This document shows, in pieces, positions 45,677 through 52,182 of a stretch of 64,000 nt of DNA. Origin of the DNA: Paenibacillus sp. JNUCC32 (GTDB lineage Bacteria > Bacillota > Bacilli > Paenibacillales > Paenibacillaceae). The translations under genes were made by a program, and so were the position numbers. How positions within the stretch are numbered: the stretch's first letter is position 1; each line of letters starts with the position of its first letter. Under the pieces are notes generated by a model. The model was not told the origin of the DNA, ran no database searches, and saw only the letters and a list, made by a program, of their open reading frames with translations. The DNA is taken from NCBI RefSeq assembly GCF_014863545.1, contig NZ_CP062260.1:992001-1056000 (forward strand), read 5' to 3'.

Positions 45677-45696
45677 AACGAATAACTTGGATGACG

Positions 45697-45737
45697 AAAA
45701 GAGAGGGCTTCTCGTAAATGGGCCTTCTCTTTTTTTT
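45697..45737 (+). terminator. rho-independent terminator after trmD
   Basis: AAAAGAGAGGGC pairs with GGCCTTCTCTTTT (one G-U), with a run of eight T. This closes the trmD transcript ahead of the collagen gene. Confidence 0.8.
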
Positions 45738-45844
45738 GTTGCGGCTCAACTGTAAGATTTCGAACCTATTGTTCGCCCAGTGAATAATCTGCAGATATGG
45801 GTGTTTGCTGAGTCGTAGAGAAGCAGAACGAGGAGTGAAGCATA

Positions 45845-48800
45845 TTGGATTCCCCACGGAGAGGAAATCGCGGCAAATTGAAGTGCACGCCTTCACGAAA
45901 AATAGCGCCCAGGCGAACGAGGTTAAGAGAGCTTTGGTTGAGTCGCCTGGTTTGGTCGTTTCGCCAATTGAGAGCACTTGTCCGCATATTCATTGAGCAA
46001 CCGGTACATGAAAACTTCATTCGTCTAAAAAGACAAGTTCGACGGATCCAAAAAATGTTGTTGTCTTCCAATATGTCACTATCTAAAAGCGAAAAGCGAT
46101 TTATCCGAATGGCCGCTGAGCAAGTATTAGTTATTTCTAATATGAACAATAGCAGAGAAATTATAGATCGAATAAACTTTTTTGCAGTACTTATCCTTTC
46201 TTATGCCGAGCGCATCGGAATAGGAAGATTGATTAGATCATCCATTCTTGAAATTAGCAGTTCGCTCAACAGATGGGGTTATGCACAAGAAAGAATGGAT
46301 TTGATCCCATTACACAACTTGGTCGATAATCTCCCGTTATATATTGCGGACGCAGTGACGAATCCAGGGATGGAATCCGCGAATAGATTAGGAGTTGTTT
46401 TTGAAGATATCAATCAACAAGTATCCCGTTTGGGCGCTTCTGCAGCGCAGCGGGAAGCTCTGCAGACAGCGTCCCAGAACGTAATAGCATCACTGGTGGA
46501 AGGCGCGTCTCCGATGCAAGTGAATGATCGATTGATGAATTATACCAATATGCTTGGAGAAACGGTAACAACTTTGGATATACCGACAACTGATCGGAAT
46601 GGGTTGTTGTTTTCTTTGTTATCTGTTTCAAGAATAAGTGCCGAGAGCGTTCAAAGTATGATGATGCAGGATTTCGTTGAAAATGTACAAGATCTAACGG
46701 GACCGACGGGCGAATCTGGAGCTACAGGTGCCCAAGGAGTACCGGGTGTTCCTGGGGCAGCGGGGTCAACGGGAGCGACGGGAGCAAGAGGAGCGGTAGG
46801 TGCAAGAGGAGCGGCGGGTGCAGCAGGCGCAAGAGGGTCAACGGGAGCAGCCGGTGCAACAGGAGCAACGGGGGCAACAGGAGAAAGAGGAGCAACCGGA
46901 GCGACAGGAGCAACGGGAGTAACAGGAGCGACTGGAGCCACAGGGGCCACGGGAGCAACTGGGGTAACCGGAGCGACAGGAGTCACGGGTGCAATGGGTG
47001 CAACGGGAGCAACAGGAGCAACCGGAGAAACTGGTGCAACAGGAGCCACGGGTGCAACAGGAGCAACGGGAGCAACAGGAGCAACAGGAGTAACAGGAGC
47101 GACTGGAGCCACAGGGGCCACGGGGGCAACGGGAGTCACCGGAGAGACAGGGGCAACCGGAGCCACCGGAGCAACAGGTATCACTGGAGCAACGGGAGCA
47201 ACCGGAGCCACGGGTGCAATAGGTGCAACGGGAGCAACAGGAGAAAGAGGAGTAACTGGTGCAACCGGAGCAACGGGAGCAACCGGAGAGACAGGAGCAA
47301 CAGGAGCAACAGGAGCAACAGGAGCAACTGGAGCGGCAGGAGCAACAGGAGCCACTGGAGCGGCAGGAGTAACAGGAGTAACAGGAGCCACGGGTGCAAC
47401 AGGAATAACTGGTGTAACGGGAGCAACAGGAGAAAGAGGAGCAACGGGGGCCACGGGAGCAACAGGTGTAACTGGGGAAAGAGGAGCGATGGGAGAAACA
47501 GGAGTAACAGGGGCAACAGGTGCAACAGGTGCAACAGGTGCAACCGGAGAAATCGGTGCAACAGGAGTAACTGGTGCAACGGGAGCTACAGGAGAAAGAG
47601 GAGCAACAGGAGTAACTGGAGTAACTGGTGCAACCGGAGCAACGGGAGCCACAGGAGTAACAGGGGCAACAGGAGCAACTGGGGTAACGGGAGTAACAGG
47701 AGCAACCGGAGCAACTGGTGTAACAGGAGCGACAGGAGAAATTGGTGCAACAGGAGCAACCGGAACAACAGGAGCGACAGGAGCCACGGGAGCAACAGGG
47801 GTAACGGGAGCCACAGGAGAGACTGGAGCTACAGGAGAAACTGGTGCCACAGGAGCAACAGGAGCTACAGGAGCAACCGGAGCTACAGGAGCAACTGGGG
47901 TAACAGGAGCGACAGGAGAAACAGGAGCAACCGGAGCAACAGGAGCAACGGGAGCCACCGGAGAGACAGGAGCAACAGGAGTAACAGGAGCCACAGGAGC
48001 CACAGGAGTAACAGGGGTAACGGGAGCCACAGGAGTAACAGGGGCAACAGGAGCAACTGGGGTAACGGGAGTAACAGGAGCAACCGGAGCAACTGGGGTA
48101 ACAGGAGCGACAGGTGCAACTGGAGTAACAGGGGCAACCGGGGTAACAGGAGCCACCGGAGCAACAGGAGCAACAGGAGTAACTGGTGCAACGGGTGCAA
48201 CAGGAGCAACAGGAGAAAGAGGAGTAACCGGAGCCACGGGAGTAACAGGGGTAACAGGAGCAACGGGGGTAACAGGAGCATCAGGGGCAACAGGAGCAAC
48301 GGGGGTAACGGGAGCAACTGGAGTAACAGGGGCAACAGGTGCAACGGGTGCAACAGGAGCCACCGGGGTAACAGGAGCAACTGGGGCGACGGGAGCAACG
48401 GGAGTAGCAGGAGAAAGAGGAGCAACGGGGACCACGGGAGCAACAGGAGTAACAGGGGCAACCGGGGTAACAGGAGCCACCGGAGCAACAGGAGCAACCG
48501 GGGTAACAGGGGCAACCGGAGCCACAGGTGTGACTGGGGAAAGAGGAGCAACGGGGGCCACGGGAGCAACAGGAGTAACTGGTGCAACCGGAGCAACAGG
48601 AGCAACCGGAGCAACAGGAGCAACGGGAGCAACGGGAGCCACCGGAGAGACAGGAGCAACAGGAGTAACAGGAGCAACGGGAGCAACGGGAGCCACCGGA
48701 GAGACAGGAGTAACAGGAGCCACAGGAGCCACTGGGGAGACGGGAGCAACGGGAGCAACAGGAGCGACCGGTGAAACAGGAGCCACGGGAGCGACAGGAG

Positions 48801-51998: not shown

Positions 51999-52052
51999 AA
52001 AGACCAGTGAGCGTTGAGCGGGTTTATAGATGAGGGTGTAAAGATAAAATAC

Positions 52053-52081
52053 TTGATTCAGTCAGCAAAATATGTTATTAT
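52053..52081 (+). promoter_or_regulatory. promoter of rplS
   Basis: TTGATT (52053-52058), a 17-bp spacer and TATTAT (52076-52081). Transcription would start near 52088. Confidence 0.65.
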
Positions 52082-52087
52082 TTCTTT

Positions 52088-52182
52088 TGTTGTGAATACG
52101 GTGGTCCGCTGCGGATAATGAAGGAAATACATAGAGTTTCCGGAAGATGCAAGAACACCTGTGTGAGAGGAGGGAGTCCTAG
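52088..52182 (+). promoter_or_regulatory. rplS leader, possible L19 autoregulatory RNA
   Basis: A roughly 95-nt untranslated leader contains a short GGTGGTCCGCTGCGGAT hairpin region and ends with AGAGGAGGGAG. Bacillota rplS genes commonly carry an L19 leader RNA at this place. The match is by position and partial structure only. Confidence 0.4.

Follow-up and report, generated by a model that had tools for sequence, protein, structure and literature searches.

Bacterial collagens are usually regarded as being defined by their triple helix. The described systems closest to the gene analyzed here are BclA in the exosporium nap of the Bacillus cereus group, BclA1-3 of Clostridioides difficile, F-BclA, which is the tip fibre of F-ENA appendages, and the Paenibacillaceae proteins of the family NF033172 (collagen-like repeat preface protein), in which an N-terminal preface stands directly before the collagen and a separate head forms the C-terminus. 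Collagen-length polymorphism is known for BclA (PMC11952670, PMC13188886), and length variation in itself is thus not new. Here we analyzed a 64,000-nucleotide stretch of Paenibacillus sp. JNUCC32 (contig NZ_CP062260.1, positions 992,001 to 1,056,000 of the forward strand; "the window"), in which a cassette with a giant collagen-like gene lies between trmD and rplS. We propose, with a probability of roughly 0.6, that the cassette encodes a three-part protein that is likely made by the mother cell at a late stage of sporulation and would form a trimeric filament exposed on the surface of the spore. The sequence-based points behind this proposal are the three parts themselves, the lack of a signal peptide-like stretch, sortase motif and BclA-type leader, a conserved promoter-like element, a low ratio of nonsynonymous to synonymous divergence (dN/dS) at both ends, and the restriction of the insertion to one clade. 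In what follows, "own" denotes this Paenibacillus genome or window, and G, L and P numbers denote genomes of the genus, loci and homologous proteins, respectively.

The giant open reading frame (ORF; 45845..51691, plus strand), identified as an ORF with family profile matches, starts with TTG and encodes 1,948 residues. A triplet count and repeat scan placed its collagen shaft at residues 286-1815 (46700..51289; 1,530 residues), where exactly 510 uninterrupted Gly-X-Y triplets were found, a count that depends on the assembly (two contigs, 7.0 Mb) and agrees with the earlier note on this DNA, which had described a 5.8-kb gene with about 510 triplets. That note had also described the triplets as almost purely G-X-T with little Pro, and indeed the Y position was Thr in 463 of 510 triplets, the X position was mainly Ala (332), Val (113) or Glu (44), and Pro occurred only 6 times in all. 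By comparison, a review (PMC8968730) puts Pro at 31% of X positions and Thr at 48% of Y positions in Gram-positive collagens, and cites collagen lengths of 27 to 1,158 residues for Bcl proteins. Mere genome bias was rejected as the reason for the scarcity of Pro, as the DUF4183 locus of this genome contains a Pro-rich collagen gene. At the DNA level the shaft is a single array, for which repeat periods of 18-63 bp were reported and within which identical stretches of 210 bp or more recur. Given a Pfam Collagen score of 710.7 bits and own/G051 dN/dS values of 0.24 (N-terminus) and 0.07 (head), the ORF is evidently not a product of chance.

The N-terminal domain (residues 1-285; 45845..46699) was predicted by a structure model to form ten helices. 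It matched NF033172 in two stretches, with 119.5 bits against a cut-off of 40 (98.1 bits in a six-frame search, in which the second preface copy scored 28.7 bits, below the cut-off), and the GXX repeats started directly after the preface, at residue 286, as is typical of members of this family. Most of 20 relatives have a preface of about 140-182 residues before the collagen, whereas here it is doubled to 285; the own protein also differs from the family by its BclA-type head. This C-terminal head (residues 1816-1948, 133 residues; 51290..51688) was predicted from profiles and fold to be a BclA/C1q jelly roll, as the earlier note had anticipated, and spore proteins were its closest matches in fold comparison. 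The protein furthermore matched the NCBIfam GXX-repeat C-terminal domain NF033147. The earlier note had described the filament as of a kind not assigned to any known structure in Paenibacillus; this kind is already catalogued by NCBI as NF033172/NF033147. Its insertion at trmD-rplS is not universal.

No LPXTG/sortase motif, membrane segment or signal peptide-like stretch was found in the giant protein, the highest 15-residue hydropathy near the N-terminus being only 0.91 in a simple hydropathy scan, as distinct from a dedicated signal-peptide predictor. A sortase-anchored adhesin of the streptococcal collagen-like type was rejected on the lack of LPXTG and of a signal peptide-like stretch. Nor did a regular expression for the BclA-type exosporium leader find a match in the N-terminus. 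The protein differs from BclA in lacking the leader and almost all Pro, and its genome in lacking a CotZ/ExsY match.

Upstream of the gene we observed a promoter-like element, AAC-N17-AATANNNTG (45763..45791, plus strand). In the form AAC-N17-NATANNNTR, it started 75-92 nt before the start codon, with the same spacing, in 10 of the 14 genomes that carry the gene, while single-base shuffles of the 14 upstream regions contained the motif in 0.4-1.9% of cases. The four carriers without the element (G031, G028, G014 and G033, the last with only 60 nt of upstream region examined) were the same four that have no or vestigial collagen. The consensus for sigma-K is AC-N16/17-CATANNNTA; the -35 AC and the 17-nt spacing of the element agree with it, and the -10 (AATANNNTG) agrees partly. 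This is suggestive, and only suggestive, of a late mother-cell (sigma-K-like) promoter for the collagen gene.

If the proposal of a spore-surface filament is correct, the mother cell would produce the protein at a late stage of sporulation, and the C1q/BclA-type head would trimerise and nucleate the triple helix. The basic helical N-terminus would fasten the fibre to the coat, though not by the BclA-ExsF route, and the extended shaft, at 510 x 3 x 0.286 nm or up to about 440 nm, would keep the head away from the spore, with glycosylation of Thr compensating for the missing proline. A very long surface-type fibre, as put forward in the earlier note, is supported in this indirect manner, and the protein becomes a candidate for the unassigned surface fibres of Paenibacillus spores. 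However, several points weigh against the proposal. The structure model of the N-terminus had a predicted template modelling score (pTM) of 0.49, and fold comparison of this model gave no clear match. The head scored below the cut-offs of both BclA_C (PF18573; 34.4 bits, gathering 38) and, just barely, the C1q Pfam family (23.6, cut-off 23.7). PF10612 (CotZ/ExsY) had no match in this genome, whereas the Bacillus subtilis control matched, so a BclA-type exosporium is not expected. With respect to the promoter-like element, its motif was defined post hoc, after seeing the alignment, its -10 lacks the C of the sigma-K CATA, and the strict sigma-K consensus was found in 0 of the 14 upstream regions. 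Moreover, when the spacing was loosened to 15-18, G031 and G028 did have AC...CATANNNTA, so that the missing element there does not equal the lack of any such site.

A role on vegetative cells, which we consider unlikely, would make the protein a cell-surface or biofilm adhesin that is released non-classically, like the collagen-like proteins that are reported to act in biofilm and root adhesion in Bacillus amyloliquefaciens. PMC4319854 reports such roles for collagen-like proteins of root-associated Bacillus, and an expression table in PMC8656422 includes a Bacillus safensis gene with a preface domain, given as high and as strongly reduced with manganese. However, neither a signal peptide-like stretch nor a membrane segment or sortase motif was found, the head is nearest to spore proteins, and the conserved upstream element is nearer to a mother-cell than to a housekeeping promoter.

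Less probable again is that the protein is the missing tip fibre (ruffle) of F-ENA-2a appendages, with its N-terminus docked to the appendage and its BclA-like head at the tip. This genome encodes F-ENA-2a-like genes and two DUF4183 genes, and the preprint that describes F-ENA-2a found no tip fibre for it (PMC11952670). F-BclA resembles the own protein in its long Ser/Thr-rich collagen, C1q-like head and lack of an exosporium leader, but has a short hook-like N-terminal docking motif, whereas the own protein has a 285-residue predicted helical domain. A regular expression for the hook motif found none in 12 of 12 homologues. Furthermore, DUF4183 occurred in only 10 of the 14 carriers and was absent from four, including G020 with 189 triplets; conversely, G010 carries DUF4183 without having a collagen gene at trmD-rplS, and the F-ENA and collagen genes of this genome lie about 320 kb apart. 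We also noted at that distant locus (L198:2933-4703) that an F-ENA-2a-like gene (MPVIKPI...) lies in divergent orientation to a collagen-DUF4183 gene, which is Pro-rich and similar to F-Anchor-2a.

Returning to the spore-surface filament, we compared its shaft among the carriers, counting triplets in runs of at least four within the part flanked by the homologous ends and leaving the split genes of G032 and G062 uncounted. The own protein has 510 triplets, G051 299, G020 189, G096 at least 165 (a lower bound, as its shaft contains an N run), G069 140, G070 93, G065 82, G024 36 (irregular) and G014 5, and G028, G031 and G033 have none. In P0015 (Paenibacillus sp. GCM10028914, 810 aa) homologous ends flank a shaft with no collagen, which is 35% acidic and has a 52-residue period, and G014 and P0014 keep scattered GXX remnants, which suggests that their shafts decayed from collagen. 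In the other pairs tried, dN/dS was 0.21-0.29 (N-terminus) and 0.10-0.39 (head; the 0.39 is that of G069/G070, with very few changes), and in the collagen-less pair G031/G028 the values were 0.35 for the N-terminus and 0.28 for the head, with a looser linker at 0.61. Selection seems to be still acting on both ends, even without collagen. By its sequence, the shaft is the disposable part of the protein within this clade, a point that the earlier note had missed, and it behaves as a length-adjustable spacer whose repeats expand, shrink and recombine and which has decayed or been replaced in some relatives while the ends are under selection. As the shaft varies while the ends stay selected, the constant function probably resides in the ends, which would provide attachment and a head for adhesion or trimerisation, with collagen setting the reach.

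BclA1-3 of C. difficile are likewise highly variable in the collagen region, and clades differ by pseudogenes or losses (PMC13188886); here, in contrast, the ORF stays open, dN/dS at the ends is low after collagen loss, and the two ends diverge differently. In the literature examined we found no case of orthologues at one site keeping both ends with the collagen absent or replaced, and no evidence for reassortment of anchors and heads through the repeat. One orthologous site with 510, 93, 36 or no triplets between homologous ends is a natural series in which to ask what a spore fibre gains from collagen, and how a triple helix with 6 Pro in 1,530 residues remains folded.

The two ends of the protein appear to have separate histories, which had also gone unremarked. 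Between own and G051, the proportion of synonymous differences (pS) was 0.28 for the N-terminus compared to 0.53 for trmD and 0.51 for the heads. Between own and G032, the N-termini were only 41% identical (pS 0.79) and the heads 96% identical (pS 0.26), with trmD at 0.45. G069 and G070 differed from own and G051 in the opposite sense (N-terminus 0.35, head 0.05, trmD 0.13). These discordant values would be explained most simply by exchange with breakpoints inside the repeats. Several observations argue for caution: pS of rplS was 0.00-0.15 over the same pairs, indicating that genes differ for other reasons too; the own/G051 heads, at 0.51, are nothing unusual; the head has only 133 codons; pS at the upper end of the range is close to saturation; and a breakpoint was not located. 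We tentatively extend the filament proposal further, to a reading that we hold possible but short of even odds, in which the cassette is one of spore fibres with an exchangeable shaft: a helical anchor that changes fast and a BclA-fold head that is conserved would be kept, the middle would be swapped among an unbroken Gly-X-Thr collagen of 510 triplets with almost no Pro, broken collagen and acidic non-collagen linkers, and the repeats would serve as a recombination tract that reassorts anchors and heads. If so, the triple helix would be an optional, adjustable spacer of the spore fibre and not its essential element.

We also determined how widely the cassette occurs. Of 80 trmD loci from named species, 76 also showed rplS and 4 did not. 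The two genes were <300 bp apart in 39 of the 76, 300-999 bp apart in 8 and at least 1 kb apart in 29, and in none of the 76 was there a run of five GXX on the plus strand or similarity to either protein end. The premise that trmD and rplS are adjacent has to be softened, as this site often holds extra genes. Within the genus, rplS was found in 98 of 100 genomes (own included), and the interval was compared, as had been suggested, for 92 of the 97 others (G034, G067, G083, G084 and G086 being left out); 85 of these had both genes on the piece, G061, G079, G019, G022 and G071 had no trmD match, and G032 and G062 were split by contig ends inside the collagen. The N-terminal query matched 13 of the 100 genomes (own included), and all 13 were consistent with the trmD-rplS interval, with G032 and G062 having trmD and the N-terminus on one piece and the head, orf47 (the small gene following the collagen gene) and rplS on the other. 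G033, detected via the head, was a fourteenth carrier; G035, with a weak 31-bit head-query match somewhere on a 10-kb piece, was counted as a non-carrier. In a midpoint-rooted tree of TrmD from 88 genomes, the 14 carriers together with G004 and G010 formed one group of exactly 16 (support 99/95), in which G004 and G033 are long rows of unsure placement. G004 and G010 keep orf47 only, and the remaining 72 rows carry none. The insertion is confined to this clade of 16 of 88 genomes, and a single gain in the clade is the simplest reading of these data.

Searching more widely across 295 genomes of the taxonomic family, we found NF033172 matches in 76, in 68 of them over the cut-off. The 85 hits above the cut-off comprised 33 sharing a contig with rplS, 36 on other contigs and 16 for which the position of rplS was not comparable. 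Three of the 33 lay within 10 kb of rplS, all from this clade, and the next was >630 kb away; no other compared hit above the cut-off was within 600 kb of rplS on its contig. The family is therefore a known one, and the trmD-rplS site appears, as far as tested, specific to this clade. A homologue, P0001 (Paenibacillus sp. FSL W8-0187), had the same length as the G070 protein and was identical to it over both searched ends. That the cassette is a non-adaptive insertion, in which a collagen gene in a permissive site grew by slippage and decays neutrally, is very improbable: the extra genes at 29 of the 76 named loci, the decay of shafts in several lineages and the two clade members with orf47 only would agree with it, but the ends have dN/dS <1, also in the collagen-less G031/G028, all 510 triplets are read in one open frame, and 10 of 14 carriers have conserved the promoter-like element.

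The earlier note's idea that Thr glycosylation stabilizes the Pro-poor shaft remained circumstantial. In G096 and G020, a methyltransferase (PF13578) and a family 2 glycosyltransferase (GT2; PF00535) lie in the trmD-rplS interval before the collagen gene, and G014, with only a vestigial shaft, has a broken methyltransferase remnant at that place. The methyltransferase had no match in the remaining 13 of 16 tested genomes, and beyond the G096/G020 pair the best identity to that GT2 was at most 44%. In this genome the pair is absent and the nearest GT2 is 40% identical, which speaks against the proposed compensation by glycosylation; the pair was rejected as the own protein's glycosylation system on these grounds. 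We further chose 20 preface-collagen loci (17 from other genera, 3 elsewhere in the genus), in which a neighbour scan covered 77 of 151 ORFs. A different GT2 lay nearby in 5 of the 20, from three other genera, and was a divergent neighbour in three (homologues by phmmer). PF00535 was matched by 6 of the 77 neighbouring proteins (one not traced to its locus), compared to 27 matches in the whole own genome. Four convergent ORFs of 531-544 aa at other loci were rejected as transferases, being D-3-phosphoglycerate dehydrogenase-like. The GT2 genes beside preface-collagen loci support glycosylation of the family's collagens in general and say little on the enzyme that would be used here; they provide a gene set for studying whether bacterial collagen is glycosylated on Thr.

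About 4 kb upstream of trmD, on the minus strand (37120-40785), the window holds a GT1-like (family 1 glycosyltransferase) gene, a GT2 gene, a polysaccharide pyruvyl transferase gene and a 123-aa ORF together. The GT2 of this cluster showed 38-66% identity over matched parts and was far more variable than the adjoining GT1 (68-97%). Three to four of the four genes occurred in 5 of the 80 named loci (L010, L014, L016, L032 and L048), and all four in G010. The cluster was rejected as a dedicated partner, as it occurs without a collagen gene at trmD-rplS.

The interval between the end of trmD (44858..45676) and the start of rplS (52183..52527) spans 6,506 bp and contains one large and one small gene, all on the plus strand. 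The terminators that had been noted after trmD and after the 47-codon gene were both found as hairpins, the second being much stronger. The first (45700..45730; -14.4 kcal/mol, z -2.66) has a U tract, and a T run stood at its position in 7 of 7 aligned rows (own and six relatives; hairpin folding covered the own sequence). The second lies 3' of orf47 at the cassette end (51958..51994; -27.7 kcal/mol, z -7.9); a consensus terminator scanner listed neither of the two. A ribosome-binding site, gaggagtgaa (45830..45839), aligned with similar sites in six relatives, and when the upstream regions of own and six relatives were aligned, the TTG start of the collagen ORF lined up in 6 of the 7. The small gene, orf47 (51805..51948, 47 codons), has the C-terminal motif TVDDILEYY and no match in Pfam or NCBIfam, and is conserved in this window and 15 of 94 genus loci, that is, in all 16 clade genomes. 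Frames with its motif were also seen 0.2 and 1.2 kb after trmD in P. zeisoli (L015:10933, TVDDVLAYY) and P. ihumii (L019:11985, TVDDILEFY), and orf47 may therefore be older than the collagen gene at trmD-rplS. As for the claim that rplS has its own promoter and leader, a promoter-like site is present (52053..52081, TTGATT-17-TATTAT with an extended -10-like TG; a consensus match only), whereas the L19 leader match (52098..52161) was weak, with 22.9 bits below the gathering score of 36 (E 0.021).

Some further observations concern relatives and the rest of the window. The 8.1-kb interval of G033 (L122) also contains what, by inspection, may be cytochrome bd oxidase and ABC exporter genes. Runs of neighbouring preface genes, mostly of about 500-600 aa, were seen in G103 (C1:899280-912600), G121 (C1:2528295-2553519) and G143 (C7:69170-78164), which have 10, 14 and 8 preface matches per genome, respectively. 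In L180, L181, L182, L186 and L191, from another genus, the preface-collagen gene adjoins an ORF of ~490 aa, which in L180, the one scanned, is a histidine kinase. Finally, a ylbH leader (RF00516; 70.9 bits) is located at 18977-19111 of the window.
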